The notes under the pieces were generated by a model. It was not told the DNA's origin. It made no database searches and was given only the letters and a program-made list of their open reading frames with translations. A stretch of 64,000 nt of DNA from an uncultured bacterium (GTDB lineage: Bacteria; Bacillota_I; Bacilli_A; RFN20; CAG-826): positions 124,001-188,000 of the forward strand of contig CASDRB010000012.1 of NCBI GenBank assembly GCA_949283025.1. Direction: 5' to 3'. The translations under genes and the position numbers were made by a program. Shown here piece after piece: positions 43,015-51,227 of the stretch (within the stretch, counting starts at the first letter, position 1; each line of letters starts with the position of its first letter).

Positions 43015-44856
43015 ATGGTAAAAATTATGGAAATTAGAAATGTAGCAATTATAGCCCATGTCGATCATGGCAAAACAACATTAGTTGATCAATTATTAAA
43101 AAGTTCTGGGACATTTCGTTCAAATGAAGAGGTGAGCGATCGTGTCATGGATTCTAATGATATTGAAAAAGAAAGAGGAATCACGATTTTAGCTAAAACA
43201 ACTTCTATTGTATACAAAAATACCAAAATTAATATTGTAGATACTCCCGGGCATGCTGATTTTGGCGGAGAAGTCGAACGTATCATGAATATGGTGGATG
43301 GTTGCTTATTATTAGTTGATGCTTTTGAAGGTGCAATGCCTCAAACAAGATTTGTTTTAAAAAAAGCCCTTGAAGCCCATATTAAGCCTATTGTCGTCGT
43401 TAATAAAATCGATAGAAAAAACATCAATATTGGAAAAACATTGGATGAAATTTTAAATTTATTTATTGAATTAGGAGCTCCGGACGAATTCTTGGACTTT
43501 AAAGTTTGTTACACTTCTGCATTAAATGGTTTATCTGGACTTGCTCCAGATCCAGAACACCTCCAACACAATATGGATGCGGTTTTCGATACAATATTAA
43601 GTGAAATTCCTGCTCCAAATAGCGATGAAAACAAACCATTGAGATTTCAAATTTCATTATTAGATTACAACGATTATGTTGGCCGAGTTGGTATTGGAAA
43701 AATCAAAGATGGAAAAATAAGCGTTGGCGACACTGTTGCTGTTTCTAGATTAGATGGTAGTATCAAAACCTTTAAGGTAATGAAATTATTAGGAAGTCGT
43801 GGTCTTAAAAAAATCGAAGTTGAAAACGCTTATGCTGGCGATATTGTTTCTGTTGCTGGATTAGCTGATATTAATGTTGGTGAAACCATTTGTCAAGTTG
43901 GGCACATTGATCCTTTGCCGCTTCTTCACATTGACGAGCCTACTCTTCAAATGACTTTTGGAGTTAATTCTTCGCCGTTTGCGGGGCAAGATGGTAAAAA
44001 CCTAACTGCGCGAAAAATTGAAGAACGATTGTTTAAAGAATTGCAAAAAGATGTCTCGTTAAGAGTTAAAAGAGTGCCAAATAGCGAATCTTGGGTCGTT
44101 TCAGGACGGGGCGAGTTGCATTTATCTATTCTAATTGAAAACATGATTAGAGAAGATTTTGAATTGCAAGTTTCTAAACCAGAAATTATCATCAAAGAAA
44201 TTGATGGTGTTAAATGCGAACCATACGAAGATTTAATTATTGATGTTCCAAATGAATTTGTTGGAGATATAATGACAACTTTAGGAGAGAGAAGTGCTCA
44301 ATTAACCAATATGGATACCACAGATTTTACAACAAAACTAGAATATGTTATTCCATCTAGAGGGTTATTGGGATTTGTTTCTTCTTATATGACATTAACA
44401 AAAGGATTTGGAATCATATCACATACTTTTAAAGAATATCGCCCTATGTCCAACATAAAAATAGGAGAAAGAAAAATTGGCGTCTTAGTTGCTACAGAAC
44501 CAGGAGAAGCAACACCATACGCTATTGAACACGTCGAAGAAAGAGGAACGATGTTTATTTCTCCAGGGACAAAAGTATATTGTGGTATGATTGTGGGTGA
44601 AAATCGTTATGACAATGATTTAGCTGTCAATGTTGTTGCCAAAAAAAATCTTACTAATATGAGAAGTGCAAATAAAGATATGACTGTGGTTTTAAAAACA
44701 CCACGTCAAATGACATTAGAAGCTTGTTTAGATTATATCAATTCTGATGAATTAGTAGAAATTACTCCTAGTGGTCATCGCATGCGCAAAAAAATTCTTG
44801 ATACTGCACAAAGAAAAAAATATGAAGCGCATCAAAAATCTAATGAAGAAGAATAA
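43015..44856 (+). CDS. typA: Translational GTPase TypA/BipA
   Basis: TypA is a ribosome-associated GTPase involved in stress adaptation and 50S assembly. The 613-residue product has IIAHVDHGKTTLVDQLL (G1), ERGITILAKTTS (switch I), DTPGHADFGGEVERI (G3), VVNKIDRKN (G4), domains like EF-G III and V, and the TypA C-terminal domain. Start: ATG 43015 lies 5 nt after a -10 box; a second ATG at 43027 gives the more usual N terminus. Length is typical. Confidence 0.97.
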   Translation: MVKIMEIRNVAIIAHVDHGKTTLVDQLLKSSGTFRSNEEVSDRVMDSNDIEKERGITILAKTTSIVYKNTKINIVDTPGHADFGGEVERIMNMVDGCLLLVDAFEGAMPQTRFVLKKALEAHIKPIVVVNKIDRKNINIGKTLDEILNLFIELGAPDEFLDFKVCYTSALNGLSGLAPDPEHLQHNMDAVFDTILSEIPAPNSDENKPLRFQISLLDYNDYVGRVGIGKIKDGKISVGDTVAVSRLDGSIKTFKVMKLLGSRGLKKIEVENAYAGDIVSVAGLADINVGETICQVGHIDPLPLLHIDEPTLQMTFGVNSSPFAGQDGKNLTARKIEERLFKELQKDVSLRVKRVPNSESWVVSGRGELHLSILIENMIREDFELQVSKPEIIIKEIDGVKCEPYEDLIIDVPNEFVGDIMTTLGERSAQLTNMDTTDFTTKLEYVIPSRGLLGFVSSYMTLTKGFGIISHTFKEYRPMSNIKIGERKIGVLVATEPGEATPYAIEHVEERGTMFISPGTKVYCGMIVGENRYDNDLAVNVVAKKNLTNMRSANKDMTVVLKTPRQMTLEACLDYINSDELVEITPSGHRMRKKILDTAQRKKYEAHQKSNEEE

Positions 44857-44857
44857 A

Positions 44858-44882
44858 AGCCTAGATGCTCTAGGCTTTTTTA
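44858..44882 (+). terminator. Terminator after typA
   Basis: AGCCTAGA-TGC-TCTAGGCT is a perfect 8-bp stem followed by TTTTTT. On the minus strand a TTTT tract also follows, so it may end the PII operon as well. Confidence 0.9.
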
Positions 44883-44905: not shown

Positions 44906-45217
44906 TTAATCAAATTTAAGCCCGCATACATCGGCACAAGGTAAAGCAAAAGCAATGCCTCGACCTTTAGTATTTAAACCGGCAGCTTCATTCACTGCTT
45001 TTAAAATATCATCACATATTTTTTCATTTGCTAAAATTAAAACAATTTCCTTTTCCGAATTAATGATGATGCCAAACTTTTCTTCCATTTCTTTATTGCC
45101 TGTTCCACGGGCGTGCAAAACAGTTCCACCACGCGCCCCATGATCTCGAGCTGCATCCATTACTAAATCTGTAAATCCTGCATCAACAATTGCCACAATC
45201 AATAAAAATTTATCCAT
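44906..45217 (-). CDS. PII-like signalling protein (first of two)
   Basis: The 103-residue protein has the PII ferredoxin-like layout: FLLIVAIVDAGFTDLVMDAA, GGTVLHARGTGN at the base of the T-loop, a second half KEIVLILANEKICDDILKAV, and TKGRGIAFALPCADVCGLKF at the C terminus. The T-loop is shorter than in GlnB/GlnK and has no obvious uridylylation tyrosine. It is in an operon with a second PII-like gene and a DUF1538 membrane protein, so it probably gates or senses for that protein. Confidence 0.85.
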   Translation of the reverse strand: MDKFLLIVAIVDAGFTDLVMDAARDHGARGGTVLHARGTGNKEMEEKFGIIINSEKEIVLILANEKICDDILKAVNEAAGLNTKGRGIAFALPCADVCGLKFD

Positions 45218-45228
45218 GCTTCATTCTC

Positions 45229-45618
45229 CTAAAATTGGTTGGTCAAAAAACGATATCCATTAATTCCCACAATAGATGCTAATGGGATTCGCATTGCCAC
45301 TCCTTTATTTCTTTTGTTTATTTTAAAAAACATTTCTATTTCATTTTTAATATCAGTAGCAACTTCATCTTTAATTATAGAAAAAACAACATCCTTGCCA
45401 TTATCTTGCAAACCTAAAATATCATAAATAGATGCATCGGCAGTTCCTTCGCCTTTATGAATAAAAGAAACTGCGCATTCAAATTGCTCCATCAACTTAA
45501 TGACAGCGTTTCCTTGTCCAGAATTAACAATCGTGATAAATAAAGACAATCCTTTTAATTCGTGGGTTTGCTCAAATGGTTTAATATCCTTGCTTGTTTT
45601 TCTTTTTAAAATACCCAT
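45229..45618 (-). CDS. PII-like signalling protein (second of two)
   Basis: The 129-residue product shows the same fold as its neighbour: KGLSLFITIVNSGQGNAVIKLM, then SFIHKGEGTADASIYDIL in place of the T-loop, VVFSIIKDEVATDIKNEI, and NKGVAMRIPLASIVGI at the end. It has an N-terminal extension of ~25 residues. The ATG at 45618 follows AGGTGA and lies just after the DUF1538 stop codon, which shows tight coupling. The two PII-like proteins are clearly diverged and could form hetero-oligomers or respond to different ligands. Confidence 0.8.
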   Translation of the reverse strand: MGILKRKTSKDIKPFEQTHELKGLSLFITIVNSGQGNAVIKLMEQFECAVSFIHKGEGTADASIYDILGLQDNGKDVVFSIIKDEVATDIKNEIEMFFKINKRNKGVAMRIPLASIVGINGYRFLTNQF

Positions 45619-45619
45619 A

Positions 45620-47206
45620 TTAATCACCTACCCGAAAATGAATGACTTCATTATCATTAAAATGCATATATCTTTGCTTGTAAACAGAGAAACGATAAGC
45701 TTTTTTTACGCGTTCTCCAACGCCTAATATCTGAATTCCAATTAAAGGAGCCATAGCTACCATTGCAATTACACCAAAAGCGTTACCCATTACATTAGGG
45801 TCTTGCCCAGCAGGAGTTGTAACAACAGCAATGCCAGTAATCATAGGCAAAACAAAACTGACAGCCATCGGACCAGATGCTACACCGCCTGAATCAAAAG
45901 CTAATGCAGTATATAAAGGCGGGCAAACAAAAGTAAGACCTAAAGCGATAATATAGCCTGGTACAATATAATATAAAATATCAAACTTATATATTGCCCT
46001 AATACCACACAATCCAATTGAAAGTCCAACACCAATAGACAAAGTCATGATAACTGATGCTTTTGTAATACCGCCATCAGATACTTTTTCAATTTGCTTA
46101 GTTAAGACATGCGTCGCTGGCTCACAAACAATAGTAACTAAGCCAATTAAAAAACAAATTAAAACAATCAACCATGGTTGAGATAAGCCAAGATGCTCAC
46201 CAACAAATTTTCCAAATGGCATCATAGCAGCTTTAATAGCTGTCAAAAATAAAACTAAACCAACAAAAGCAAACAAAAAACCAAATAATATACGCTTAAT
46301 TTCTTGTTTTGGCAGTTTTATATAGATAGCTTGATAAATGAAAAATACAATCATAATTGGCGCTAAAGCCATAGCTACTTCAAGCATCGTCCCATAAGCG
46401 CCAATACTACCATCGCTATTAAAAGTCGGTAATAATTGGTCTTGAAATCTTTTCCAAATATTAGAATCATTACTCAATGCAACTATTGAATCACCAGTAT
46501 AATTGGTAGTTCCATTTTGAACAAATAAAATCAAGATTATCATCATAATTAATGGTCCAATAGACGCAATCGCAATTAAACCAAAACTTTCTTGTTGAGA
46601 TTTTTTACCGCCTCTAACCATTGCTACCCCGGCTCCTAGCGACAATAAAAACGGAACTGTAGCTGAACCAGTTGTCGCTCCACTAGTATCCCAAATTAAT
46701 GGCATGAATTGTTTATTATCAATCAATATAGCAAGGGCAAAGGTTAAACCATATAAACCTAACAACCATAAATTCAAAGATTGATGTTTAATAGTTCTAA
46801 TAACGCCAATAGCAACAAATAACCCCACACCAAGTGAAATAAATAGAATTAATGACCAACCAGGAAGTGGTGTTTGCGAACTTAAGATCATAATCGATGG
46901 TTCAGCACAAGTCACCAAAGCGCCTAGCAAAACTGCTACAACCACCACAATCCACAGTTTGTTTTGTTTTGATAACGAAGAGCCCATATGCTCCCCAACT
47001 TTCGATAGGCTACGACTTGATCCAATTGAAAAAACGCTTAATCCCAGCACCAAAACAACCGCTCCAATTATCAATAATGCATAATCGTATCCGCCAATGA
47101 TAGGCGCAAGTTTGCTAAAAGATAAAATTAAGATTATGACAATGATAGGAACGATTGATAAACATGATTCTAATAAAGTGCGAAAAAGTTTATTAATCGA
47201 AGTCAT
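45620..47206 (-). CDS. DUF1538-family membrane protein with two repeats
   Basis: The 528-residue protein has 12-14 membrane helices in two homologous halves. The first half holds KVGEHMG (~70) and TCAEPS (~99); the second holds FVGEHLG (~334) and VCEPAT (~361), with nearly equal spacing. This duplication, with an acidic-proline motif inside each half, is typical of secondary transporters. The family is DUF1538, whose substrate I do not know. Two PII-like genes follow directly. Confidence 0.85.
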   Translation of the reverse strand: MTSINKLFRTLLESCLSIVPIIVIILILSFSKLAPIIGGYDYALLIIGAVVLVLGLSVFSIGSSRSLSKVGEHMGSSLSKQNKLWIVVVVAVLLGALVTCAEPSIMILSSQTPLPGWSLILFISLGVGLFVAIGVIRTIKHQSLNLWLLGLYGLTFALAILIDNKQFMPLIWDTSGATTGSATVPFLLSLGAGVAMVRGGKKSQQESFGLIAIASIGPLIMMIILILFVQNGTTNYTGDSIVALSNDSNIWKRFQDQLLPTFNSDGSIGAYGTMLEVAMALAPIMIVFFIYQAIYIKLPKQEIKRILFGFLFAFVGLVLFLTAIKAAMMPFGKFVGEHLGLSQPWLIVLICFLIGLVTIVCEPATHVLTKQIEKVSDGGITKASVIMTLSIGVGLSIGLCGIRAIYKFDILYYIVPGYIIALGLTFVCPPLYTALAFDSGGVASGPMAVSFVLPMITGIAVVTTPAGQDPNVMGNAFGVIAMVAMAPLIGIQILGVGERVKKAYRFSVYKQRYMHFNDNEVIHFRVGD

Positions 47207-47250
47207 AACATAATTATATTCATTCTTTTTATTTATCCCAATTATTATTT

Positions 47251-48168
47251 TTATTTTTTAAATAAATTGTTAAATTCTTTTGGAATTTTTGTCTCAAAAG
47301 TCATAATTTTATTATTGATAGGGTGTTTAATAATTAATCGATAAGCATGCAATCCTAAACGTTTGAGTGGATTTTTAGGATTGCCGTATTTATCATCGCC
47401 GATAACATGATGATTTAAATCGCCCATATGGACACGAATTTGATTTTTTCTGCCTGAATCAATATGAACATCAACCCATGAGTATTCTTCGTTTTCTTTT
47501 TTAACCTCATAGTGAGTAATCGCTAATTTGCCGTGGATCTTATCATCAGAAGAATACATTAAATTCAAACTATTAGATTTTAAATATGATTTGATTGTAC
47601 CTTTTTTTATTTTCAATTGTCCTTCAACAATAGCCACATAACCGCGATCTAATACTAAATCATTCCATTTTTGTTGAAACAATTCTTGCAAATTTAAATT
47701 TTTAACCATCATCAAAACACCAGAAGTATCTTCATCTAAACGATGAACTACATATGGGCGAATCTTTTTGTTTTTGCTAGATAAATAATCGCTTACTTTA
47801 CGATAGGCAGTTTTGCCTTTTTCTTTATCTGAAGCGATAGTCAATAATCCCGATGGTTTATTGATGACAATGATTTCATCATCTTCATAAACTATTTCTA
47901 AATCAGATTTTTTATGGATATTAGCCAATGGCTTAGATGAAATTATCACTAAATCGTTTTTGACTAAAGGATAATCAAATTGGCTGACCATAGAACCGTT
48001 GACGCTTACAAGATGATGGGAAAGATAACCTTTAATAGTATTGCGGCTTTCACCTTTAACATTATCTAACAAAAATGTCAAAATAGTTGTTTCATTTTTG
48101 ACGATATATTGTTTTTTATTTAAATATTCTTTAGAAAAATTATTGAAGCGTTTCTTGTTTTTGTTCAT
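47251..48168 (-). CDS. RluA-family pseudouridine synthase
   Basis: The 305-residue enzyme has an N-terminal S4 RNA-binding domain (RNTIKGYLSHHLVSVNG), the catalytic PYVVHRLDEDTSGVLMMVKN with the active-site Asp, and the C-terminal GRKNQIRVHMGDLNHHVIGDDKYG. It modifies uridines in rRNA or tRNA; the exact target is not clear. It overlaps the preceding membrane-protein gene by 29 nt and has a GGAA ribosome-binding site. Confidence 0.95.
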   Translation of the reverse strand: MNKNKKRFNNFSKEYLNKKQYIVKNETTILTFLLDNVKGESRNTIKGYLSHHLVSVNGSMVSQFDYPLVKNDLVIISSKPLANIHKKSDLEIVYEDDEIIVINKPSGLLTIASDKEKGKTAYRKVSDYLSSKNKKIRPYVVHRLDEDTSGVLMMVKNLNLQELFQQKWNDLVLDRGYVAIVEGQLKIKKGTIKSYLKSNSLNLMYSSDDKIHGKLAITHYEVKKENEEYSWVDVHIDSGRKNQIRVHMGDLNHHVIGDDKYGNPKNPLKRLGLHAYRLIIKHPINNKIMTFETKIPKEFNNLFKK

Positions 48169-49117
48169 GGTTTTTTCCTTGAAAAATATGATATTTAAAA
48201 ATTAGTATCAACAATGAAGAAATGCATATTGTAAAATTAAGAACAAATGTGATTATGATACCAATAGGCATTTTTATTGCCAAACCAATTTCATATTCCC
48301 ATTGCAACGAATTAGCAACAATATATGGGTTAAAAATATATCCAATTATTAACCAAGAATGGATTGTTATTGTCAAAACAAAACATACTATCAAAGAAAT
48401 CAAATAAAATTTCATTTGGGACTTATTCTTATTTAAAAATTTAAAAATCATATATAAAAAACCAAACAAAGCAGGCAAGGCAAATGATAAATAATGAGGA
48501 ATAATCAATCCAATATTTTGGTCGATATAACCATCATTAATAAATGTTAAGCCATAAAGACATTCACCAAAAAAATATGTGGCAAACGGCAAATAAAAAC
48601 ACAGCAAAACAAACTCCGTTTTATTAAATGGCTTGACTAATGTTTCTTTTGTTAAAACGAATTTTCGATCGAGTTTTTGATATAATAAAAAAGCAATTGC
48701 TAGCAGCAAATATAAACTGTTAATTATGATGACATCTAAACTAAACATTGGTGTCATCATATCGATAATAATTTTGCCGTCAAAAACAAAAACAATTGAT
48801 AAACTAATAGCAACCAAATCAAAAATAGCTATAAAACATAAAATTAACCCCAATATTTTCATCGTTTTTAATCTTTTTTTGTTGTTGGCGCTAAAAACAA
48901 TTAAAAATGAACAATAAAAAATAATCAAAGGAGTTAAATAAGTCAATGTGGTTGGCAAAGCATAAAGAGAGGTTCTTCCATAATATGTAACCATAGGAAG
49001 AGCTAACCTTACTCCATAAAATGTAGTTAATGAAACTATGAAAAAACTAACTGACATAACTAATACGGCAGCAAGATATAACTTGTTTTTGCTAGAAATG
49101 GATTTTATCTTTCCCAT
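48140..49117 (-). CDS. Eight-helix membrane protein of unknown function
   Basis: The 325-residue protein has about eight hydrophobic segments spread over its length (YLAAVLVMSVSFFIVSLTTF to FVLNFTICISSLLILIF) with few soluble parts. I recognise no family. It lies between the metallophosphoesterase and pseudouridine synthase genes, overlapping each, so it is within an operon. GGAAGTGAG inside the end of the phosphoesterase gene is its likely ribosome-binding site. Confidence 0.6.
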   Translation of the reverse strand: MGKIKSISSKNKLYLAAVLVMSVSFFIVSLTTFYGVRLALPMVTYYGRTSLYALPTTLTYLTPLIIFYCSFLIVFSANNKKRLKTMKILGLILCFIAIFDLVAISLSIVFVFDGKIIIDMMTPMFSLDVIIINSLYLLLAIAFLLYQKLDRKFVLTKETLVKPFNKTEFVLLCFYLPFATYFFGECLYGLTFINDGYIDQNIGLIIPHYLSFALPALFGFLYMIFKFLNKNKSQMKFYLISLIVCFVLTITIHSWLIIGYIFNPYIVANSLQWEYEIGLAIKMPIGIIITFVLNFTICISSLLILIFKYHIFQGKNHEQKQETLQ

Positions 49118-50199
49118 TCTATGCTCACTTCCTTTTCTTCATCGTAAGGAACCAAAACTTTTGTCAATTTAAAATACGATTTCTTATTAGTTTTTTCATC
49201 AAGCGCATTTACTTTTTCGTTCAATGTATAAAAAGCCGCGCCCAACATATCATCATCATAGTAAATATTTCTTGTGGCTTTATTTCCATATATCAATCTA
49301 ATTGGATGATCGTATTGGCCATAATACCATAGGTCAGTCGAATTAACATGATCATGATTTACACCTATACCCACAGTCGAATTTAATTCAAACATTTTAT
49401 CAACTAAACCAGAATTTTTGTTTGGATAACTGATGCTTTCATTAATATAGCAGTAATTATATTCGTCTTTTTTTACTTCACCCATTTTTGCATCAAATTG
49501 ATTAATAGCAGTTTCAAATTCAATGGTGGGAATATGAAAAAACGCTAAAGACTTAGTAGGATTAGATGATAATCGTTGCGATTCAATAACCATTTTTTCA
49601 TACCAATCTATCTGATCTTGATGGAATGTATCATAACCAGCAAAAACAAAAGAGTTGCTATCTAAAAAATAAAGTTGAAACATCAGCTCATCCATATGGA
49701 ATAAATTGACTACATAATTGCAATTTCCATAAACGTTATCATCTTTTGGATTTTTTAATAAAGAGTTGGGCCGCTTAGATAATTCATCCAAAATAAATTC
49801 AGGATAATAAGATCCTTGCAAATCGTGATTTCCCCAAGTAAAAGCATATGGAATATCTAAGCTATCAATAAAATCTAAAGTTTTAATAACAACATTTTTA
49901 TCTGCGTTCATAAAAGTGTCACCATTAAAAATTAAAATATTAGGTTTAGCCATTTCATATGGAACGTTTTTTACGACGGAATACGATTTGATTGTTTTTT
50001 CAATGTAAGCAAAATCATCATCTAAAAAACTAGCTTTGGAAAGATGCAAATCCCCCAATTGGCAAATCAAAAATTGATCGACATATGTCAAATTAGAGAC
50101 ATAGTCTTCATATTGATAGACTTTGCTAGGGTTTTGACAAGAACTAAGCATCAGACCGACCAATAAGATAAAACTAGTATTTTTCCATTTAATATTCAT
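49105..50199 (-). CDS. Metallophosphoesterase lipoprotein
   Basis: A calcineurin-like phosphoesterase on the outer face of the membrane. A lipoprotein signal (FILLVGLMLSSC) is followed by the metal motifs: ICQLGDLHL, ILIFNGDTF, FTWGNHDLQGSYYP, FFHIP and GVNHDH. All metal ligands are present. The ATG at 50199 gives the normal signal peptide; no Shine-Dalgarno sequence is seen. It lies downstream of the ATP-grasp gene with a 22-nt gap. Substrate unknown. Confidence 0.9.
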   Translation of the reverse strand: MNIKWKNTSFILLVGLMLSSCQNPSKVYQYEDYVSNLTYVDQFLICQLGDLHLSKASFLDDDFAYIEKTIKSYSVVKNVPYEMAKPNILIFNGDTFMNADKNVVIKTLDFIDSLDIPYAFTWGNHDLQGSYYPEFILDELSKRPNSLLKNPKDDNVYGNCNYVVNLFHMDELMFQLYFLDSNSFVFAGYDTFHQDQIDWYEKMVIESQRLSSNPTKSLAFFHIPTIEFETAINQFDAKMGEVKKDEYNYCYINESISYPNKNSGLVDKMFELNSTVGIGVNHDHVNSTDLWYYGQYDHPIRLIYGNKATRNIYYDDDMLGAAFYTLNEKVNALDEKTNKKSYFKLTKVLVPYDEEKEVSIEWER

Positions 50200-50221
50200 A
50201 ATCAAATTAATAATAACATAA

Positions 50222-51121
50222 CTATTTATTGTTTGTTTTTAATTTTTCTAAAACCATTTCCACAAATAATTTAGCGACATTAATTTTTGTAACTTTTTCA
50301 AACTCTTGGAAAAATGAATTAGAATTAATTTCACATAAAATCGGTTCATCATTTTCACCAAATAATAAATCGACCCCTGCATAATCAATATTCATTTCTT
50401 CAATGATTTTTTGAACAAACGCAATGTATTTATCATTTAAATTAATTGGTTTTGAAGAGGCACCATCATGGAAATTAGAACGATAATCATGAGGATTAAA
50501 TCTTTCAAACGCCCCAACGAATCGATGATTGCAAACTAAACATCTAATGCTTCTACCATAACTTGAAGTAATATATTCTTGAAATAAGACTGGTTGATTT
50601 TTCATTTGACGATAAAAAGTTAAAAAATCATCTTTGTTATCAACATAACACATATTTAATCCTAAAGATCCATATACGCCTTTTATCAACAAAGGAAATT
50701 TTAATTCTTTTAAAACATTATCCACCACTTCTTGATCAGAACAATCTTTTAAACGAAACACCAAAGGACCAGGAATAGTTTTGGGCATTTTAAAACCAAG
50801 ATTAGCCAAGCGAATATGAGTTAGCATTTTATCATCACAAAGTTCAATAAAAGAAGCATTGTTAATTAACAAGATACCTGCTTTTTCTAATATTCTAGCC
50901 ATATATTTATCTTTATCAAGATAAATAATAAAATCATAATGAGGTATATTTAAAATAATATTGCCGTCTTTTATGATAGCTAAAGAACCATCATTAACTA
51001 AAATATCTACTTCGTAATCATATTTTAAAAATTCTTCTTTAAAACGATTTATTTTATATTGAATATTTTTGCTTGCATCACCGTATTGATGATTGATAAT
51101 AATTGCCCCTTTTTTAAACAT
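50222..51121 (-). CDS. RimK-like ATP-grasp ligase
   Basis: The 299-residue protein begins with a Rossmann-like preATP domain (GAIIINHQYGDASKN) followed by an ATP-grasp fold: DKMLTHIRLANLGFKMPKTI, FPLLIKGVYGSLGLNM, LFQEYITSSYGRSIRCLV and the metal site LCEINSNSFFQEFE. This matches RimK-type carboxylate-amine ligases; the substrate cannot be told. ATG 51121 follows AAGGAA and is used instead of 51139. First gene of the minus operon down to 44906. Confidence 0.85.
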   Translation of the reverse strand: MFKKGAIIINHQYGDASKNIQYKINRFKEEFLKYDYEVDILVNDGSLAIIKDGNIILNIPHYDFIIYLDKDKYMARILEKAGILLINNASFIELCDDKMLTHIRLANLGFKMPKTIPGPLVFRLKDCSDQEVVDNVLKELKFPLLIKGVYGSLGLNMCYVDNKDDFLTFYRQMKNQPVLFQEYITSSYGRSIRCLVCNHRFVGAFERFNPHDYRSNFHDGASSKPINLNDKYIAFVQKIIEEMNIDYAGVDLLFGENDEPILCEINSNSFFQEFEKVTKINVAKLFVEMVLEKLKTNNK

Positions 51122-51227
51122 ATTAAATTCCTTATACAAGTTTATATCATATCACAATTATTTTTTAACTTGTTAAAACTTTTATTTTTTATATCTTAAA
51201 GGTAATATATTATTTGAGGTATAAAAT

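Follow-up and report, generated by a model that had tools for sequence, protein, structure and literature searches.

Tandem DUF1538 membrane proteins followed by two diverged PII-like proteins: a candidate PII-gated cation/proton antiporter

Known PII-transporter pairs and DUF1538 proteins

Few bacterial sensors have been studied as much as the PII proteins. Some are encoded in tandem, such as NifI1 and NifI2, paralogues that regulate nitrogenase. Among transporters under PII control, a review from 2023 names only AmtB/Amt1, NrtABCD, UrtABCDE and SbtA, which import ammonium, nitrate, urea and bicarbonate (PMC10710835). DUF1538 membrane proteins have been studied separately. The UmpA and UmpB proteins of Halomonas zhaodongensis, a DUF1538 pair encoded by separate genes, assemble as a heterodimer that exchanges Na+(Li+,K+) for H+ in a pH-dependent manner (PMC5484666). 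This pair is active in E. coli when its own PII is not supplied, and PII is absent from the paper's text (PMC5484666). The sequence-only reading that drew attention to the locus described here had supposed that no DUF1538 substrate was established, and the Halomonas work corrects it on this point.

In the window (the whole stretch of 64,000 nucleotides that was analysed), a tandem DUF1538 gene is followed by genes for two PII-like proteins, PII-1 and PII-2. Because PII follows DUF1538 in every relative checked, and because the membrane protein is akin to an antiporter, the locus probably encodes an ion exchanger that is switched by a PII sensor. We rate at slightly better than even the reading that it specifies an exchanger of monovalent cations for H+, gated by a hetero-oligomer of PII proteins whose signal is something other than nitrogen status. 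The broader proposal of a class of such PII-gated antiporters, with an unseen inverted-repeat fold, an obligate two-PII hetero-oligomer and a non-nitrogen signal, is put forward only tentatively.

Each of the described systems resembles this locus in part. Like UmpAB, it has two homologous seven-helix DUF1538 units with conserved acidic residues and a shared Pfam family. Unlike UmpAB, the units are fused in one chain, score far under the UmpA and UmpB cut-offs and precede two PII genes. As with SbtA-SbtB, a PII-like gene adjoins an inverted-repeat secondary transporter and the PII-like protein lacks a nitrogen role. However, SbtA and SbtB are both trimers and have one PII gene, whereas two different PII proteins accompany a duplicated transporter here, and the DUF1538 protein matches no solved transporter by sequence or fold. 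GlnK-AmtB is likewise an operon of a PII protein and a membrane transporter, but the genome examined here has no AmtB, the T-loop lacks the Y51 motif and the ATP/2-oxoglutarate contacts are lost. NifI1-NifI2 are also two adjacent, diverged PII genes that act as a pair, although their target is an enzyme rather than a transporter.

The earlier description of the locus as a candidate for an undescribed signalling-transport system holds in part. In the literature searched, no report was found that joins DUF1538 to 'P-II family nitrogen regulator' proteins, but PII-gated transporters are already a known kind and public annotation already shows the two sorts of gene side by side. The locus differs from known PII-transporter pairs in its transporter family, its two PII proteins and its lack of nitrogen context. 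If the pairing is functional, ion and pH homeostasis would come within the reach of PII control, and the stated pattern of trimeric transporters as PII partners would be broken. The pairing would also supply a function for proteins widely annotated as 'P-II family nitrogen regulator', which have no visible nitrogen link here. DUF1538 itself becomes testable, with a predicted fold that has no solved relative and an evident regulator gene alongside.

The gene cassette

All three open reading frames lie in the order DUF1538, PII-1, PII-2 on the minus strand (Table 1), at the coordinates that had been read from the sequence. The gaps were first given as 2-11 nt. PII-1 and PII-2 are indeed 11 nt apart, but the DUF1538 stop codon is separated by 1 nt from the ATG at 45618, which is most likely the PII-1 start, judging from an upstream AGGTGA that resembles a Shine-Dalgarno sequence. 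A GTG at 45627 is a possible alternative start that overlaps the DUF1538 gene by 8 nt. The PII-2 start is preceded by AGGAG.

Table 1. Features of the DUF1538/PII cassette (window coordinates)
Feature	Coordinates	Strand	Basis or remark
Tandem DUF1538 membrane protein, 528 aa	45620..47206	-	two PF07556 domains; UmpA-UmpB-like halves fused
DUF1538 protein C-terminal tail, D-N-E-V-I-H-F motif, residues about 500-528 + stop	45620..45709	-	predicted cytosolic
PII-1, diverged PII-like protein, 129 aa from ATG at 45618	45229..45618	-	profile comparison, fused-relative fold
PII-2, conserved PII-like protein, 103 aa, PF00543	44906..45217	-	Pfam P-II match
Terminator-like stem-loop, 11 pairs	44855..44879	between convergent typA (+) and PII-2 (-)	consensus scan, match to consensus only

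The cassette is the last part of a series of seven co-directional minus-strand genes with short gaps (44906-51139), which encode an ATP-grasp protein, a metallophosphatase, an unknown 325-aa membrane protein, a pseudouridine synthase, the DUF1538 protein, PII-1 and PII-2. This run may be a single transcript. Riboswitch control of the cassette was considered and dropped because an Rfam scan of the window and ten relatives gave no match near it. The source genome is a draft of 1.2 Mb whose closest named relatives are gut Bacilli.

Linkage of DUF1538 and PII genes across genomes

The DUF1538-PII arrangement is far beyond chance. When all non-identical tandem DUF1538 genes whose contigs continue downstream were gathered from Bacilli, Clostridia and Bacteroidales, a PII gene was found directly 3' of the DUF1538 gene at 137/137 loci (median gap 5 nt, quartiles -3 to 11), so that the conserved operon expected of PII-gated transporters is present throughout. 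Most of these DUF1538 proteins are only about 34-50% identical to that of the window. A scan of GTDB genomes recovered 80 tandem DUF1538 loci in Clostridia, Bacilli and Bacteroidales; PII comes next at 79, and the remaining locus runs into the end of its contig. Beyond the cassette, the upstream neighbours at 73 loci fall into 60 families and the downstream neighbours at 71 loci into 63. Since the outer neighbours vary at almost every locus, selection holds the cassette together.

The sequence-only reading had proposed genomic co-occurrence as a check and had stated that finding DUF1538 often without PII-like genes would count against it. No such tendency is seen at the 137 loci or in a phylum sample of 245 genomes, where 44 carry both, 1 only DUF1538, 8 only PII and 192 neither. 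The sole DUF1538-only case in this sample (G067) is a fragment, and 44/45 genomes with DUF1538 have PII. Within the taxonomic family, DUF1538 occurs in 73 and PII-2 in 79 of 116 genomes, and the DUF1538 genes that lack a PII-2 match are all fragments (G067, L042) or lie at contig ends (G087, G104). No intact DUF1538 gene without PII was seen in the loci and genomes surveyed.

The linkage persists when the genes are differently joined. Two loci (L135 and L169) have separate UmpA-UmpB genes followed by two PII genes. In Alphaproteobacteria, Methylocystis and Chelativorans plasmids carry two DUF1538 genes and then one P-II gene; the evidence from Pseudomonadota comes from plasmids only. In Clostridia, tandem DUF1538 is accompanied by a double PII fused in one chain. 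Fusion of PII-1 to PII-2 occurs at 34/135 loci, with at least 6 state changes on the DUF1538 tree, and is a classic sign of joint function.

The DUF1538 protein

The membrane protein belongs to the DUF1538 family, with a whole-protein E value of 1.8e-105 (351 bits, cut-off 22.6) against PF07556 and two separate domain matches (E 8.7e-60 and 2.2e-48). Its scores against the NCBIfam models for UmpA and UmpB (NF041627 and NF041628) are 123.4 and 107.9 bits, well below the equivalog cut-offs of 490 and 500. Because these cut-offs are so far from being reached, the assignment of Na+/K+/Li+ as substrate in the window organism is a transfer across distant relatives, and is made by analogy.

The first reading had noted matching motifs in the two halves. 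These are present, with VGEHMG at residues 70-75 and CAEP at 100-103 in the first half and VGEHLG at 335-340 and CEP at 361-363 in the second. Across 67 relatives, however, the Cys, the His and the first Glu of these motifs are not conserved. The invariant positions are the G..G and E-P of the motifs together with D173 and D438.

An AlphaFold2 model built with 67 sequences (pLDDT 93.0, pTM 0.92) gives each half seven membrane helices, two of which are broken. In this model and the alignment of 67 relatives, E102-P103, D173, E362-P363 and D438-S-G-G fall at or near the helix breaks. Family-averaged loop charges follow an alternating positive-inside pattern and fit 14 helices with both ends cytosolic and a negative outer linker. 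These features suggest 14 transmembrane helices arranged as two seven-helix halves with cytosolic N and C termini. The halves are taken to be inverted because each has seven helices, as in many ion exchangers. The invariant acidic residues E102, D173, E362 and D438 are likely, on the model, to form an ion/proton site.

No solved relative of DUF1538 was found by sequence, nor by fold, where the best match had an E value of 0.023 and TM scores were 0.2 or less. The lack of a matching transporter fold leaves some room for a PII-gated protein that moves another substrate, perhaps ammonium or some organic ion. The one DUF1538 pair that has been characterised is distant, and the substrates of PII-controlled transporters elsewhere are ammonium, nitrate, urea or bicarbonate (PMC10710835). 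We consider this quite unlikely, since the acidic and broken-helix residues are invariant across the 67 relatives and, in the same class of bacteria, Na+/H+ exchangers too are encoded beside PII-like genes.

A tail of the DxxII-x-F/L type ends 118/137 of the tandem relatives, and I521 and I522 are near-invariant in the DUF1538 alignment. The tail is associated with PII-1 divergence, strongly when this is measured by HMM score (p 2.6e-10) and weakly when it is measured by direct PII-1/PII-2 similarity (p 0.03). The association is gone in phylogenetically independent pairs, and it was dropped as evidence.

The two PII-like proteins

PII-2 is recognised by the Pfam P-II model (PF00543; E 7.4e-9, 36.3 bits, cut-off 25), as are 21/21 members of its family alignment. 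The family profile matches GlnK/PII structures, and a sequence match was also obtained to PDB entry 9p1x, which is named only 'P-II family'. PII-1 of the window has no Pfam P-II match, and 5/20 of its relatives match weakly. The two proteins differ in sequence, as first noted. BLASTP between them is insignificant, and homology is visible by profile comparison only (98.7% probability over 101 columns).

A naturally fused relative (L067:5502-6302) was modelled with a pLDDT of 83. Both of its domains have the beta-alpha-beta-beta-alpha-beta order of PII proteins, and Foldseek matches the fused protein to PII/GlnK structures with a probability of 1.00 and E values down to 2.8e-5. PII-1 is counted as a PII protein because of its profile match to PII-2 and the fold of the equivalent domain in this relative. 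The T-loops had been described as short and altered. The Y51-type motif is absent, but the T-loops of the fused relative contain a short helix, span about 15-17 residues and are only modestly shorter than canonical ones.

The two families differ in conservation. GARGGT, A-R-G, K-E and G-x-G-I-A-F-x-x-P are near-invariant in PII-2, whereas PII-1 is variable and conserved mainly at GTA, a K and the last loop. In a profile alignment with Arabidopsis PII, PII-2 has I in place of K90, G in place of R101 and K in place of R103, and the Q39 position is not conserved. It retains glycines at the T-loop base and in the B-loop, as well as the G-x-G base loop. PII-2 thus falls outside canonical GlnB/GlnK proteins, which are defined by the Q39, K90, R101 and R103 contacts and the Y51 motif. 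Because K90, R101 and the Y51 motif are missing, canonical ATP/2-oxoglutarate sensing by PII-2 is unlikely as judged from its residues.

The loss of canonical ligand residues, together with the lack of any intact DUF1538 gene without PII, would also be expected if PII-1 and PII-2 were obligatory assembly or stability subunits rather than sensors. This appears very improbable. UmpAB of Halomonas functions in E. coli with its own PII not supplied (PMC5484666), the base loop and R-G motif of PII-2 are highly conserved as expected of a binding site, and the PII pair survives where DUF1538 is missing (see below).

PII genes in other settings

Two genera, with six genomes between them, keep PII genes without DUF1538 (G027 and G050; G033, G057, G075 and G089; loci L032-L037). 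In G050, PII-2 only was detected. The retained genes occupy the same gene slot, close to a pseudouridine-synthase gene that also flanks the window cassette. Whole-genome searches of the PII-only genomes found no hidden DUF1538 even at E 10. A CPA antiporter was considered as a substitute partner and rejected, as no CPA gene was found in these genomes. In the second genus (L032-L035), dN/dS of the PII genes is about 0.01-0.16, which indicates purifying selection. Because the pair is kept without DUF1538, and under such constraint in the second genus, it must have another role there. It seems that the transporter cannot do without the PII pair, whereas the PII pair can do without the transporter, and these genera count against strict coupling and a single-target view.

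Such cases are what would be seen if the PII pair were a general sensor with its main target elsewhere, sharing an operon with DUF1538 through a common condition such as K+/Na+ or pH homeostasis and making no direct contact with it. Both genera that lack DUF1538 (g27 and g33, the latter with purifying selection) fit this explanation, as does an additional PII pair in G215 that lies apart from its DUF1538 cassette. We nevertheless judge it unlikely, since order and adjacency are kept at all 137 divergent loci while the surroundings change, intact DUF1538 is never seen alone, and the known transporter-linked PII proteins of GlnK-AmtB and SbtB-SbtA work by contact. The extra pair in G215 resembles PII-1/PII-2 (L166:2192-2876) and is followed by genes for an ABC ATPase and a YbbM-like permease.

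Lone PII-like genes were also encountered. At several loci (L163:950-2472, L164:2291-3998, L165:1018-2628 and L038-L040), a distant PII-like gene of about 112 aa adjoins a CPA2 Na+/H+ exchanger. These pairs, like the window cassette and in the same class of bacteria, place a PII-like protein beside a cation/proton antiporter, but the antiporter family is different and the PII-like protein is single and more distant. As a second, possible PII-antiporter pairing that is independent of the first, they support the substrate assignment and the gating idea. Other lone PII-like genes (L160-L162) have no antiporter neighbour and lie beside a MerR-like regulator or other unrelated genes.

A candidate mechanism and signal

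In the gated-antiporter reading, the DUF1538 protein would be an Ump-type (Na+/K+/Li+)/H+ antiporter in which UmpA and UmpB halves are joined as inverted repeats and E102, D173, E362 and D438 would serve as the ion/proton site. PII-1 and PII-2 would share a transcript and function jointly, probably in a hetero-oligomer. Of the two, PII-2 would be the ligand-sensing subunit and PII-1 the faster-evolving, target-specific one. The complex would lie beneath the antiporter on its cytosolic side, perhaps on the C-terminal tail, and would open or close it in response to a small-molecule signal other than the canonical ATP plus 2-oxoglutarate. Two points on the Halomonas pair weigh against this reading: UmpAB functions in E. 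coli with no supply of its own PII (PMC5484666), and the window protein scores far below the UmpA and UmpB cut-offs. The analysis establishes the identity of the genes, the PII fold in a fused relative, the conserved linkage, the PII-1/PII-2 fusions and the loss of canonical ligand contacts, and from there we infer the substrate in this organism, the topology and the PII hetero-oligomer.

Canonical nitrogen signalling was dropped as an explanation because the window genome has no AmtB and no further PII. No DarA was found in this genome either, and a diadenylate cyclase, which synthesises c-di-AMP, is present. On these grounds the signal can reasonably be guessed to be an adenine nucleotide or c-di-AMP, though this best guess is no more than a guess. 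The same genome has three Na_H_Exchanger matches, one of which (G000:C6:22379-23482) carries an in-frame TAG and may be a pseudogene or reflect a sequencing error.
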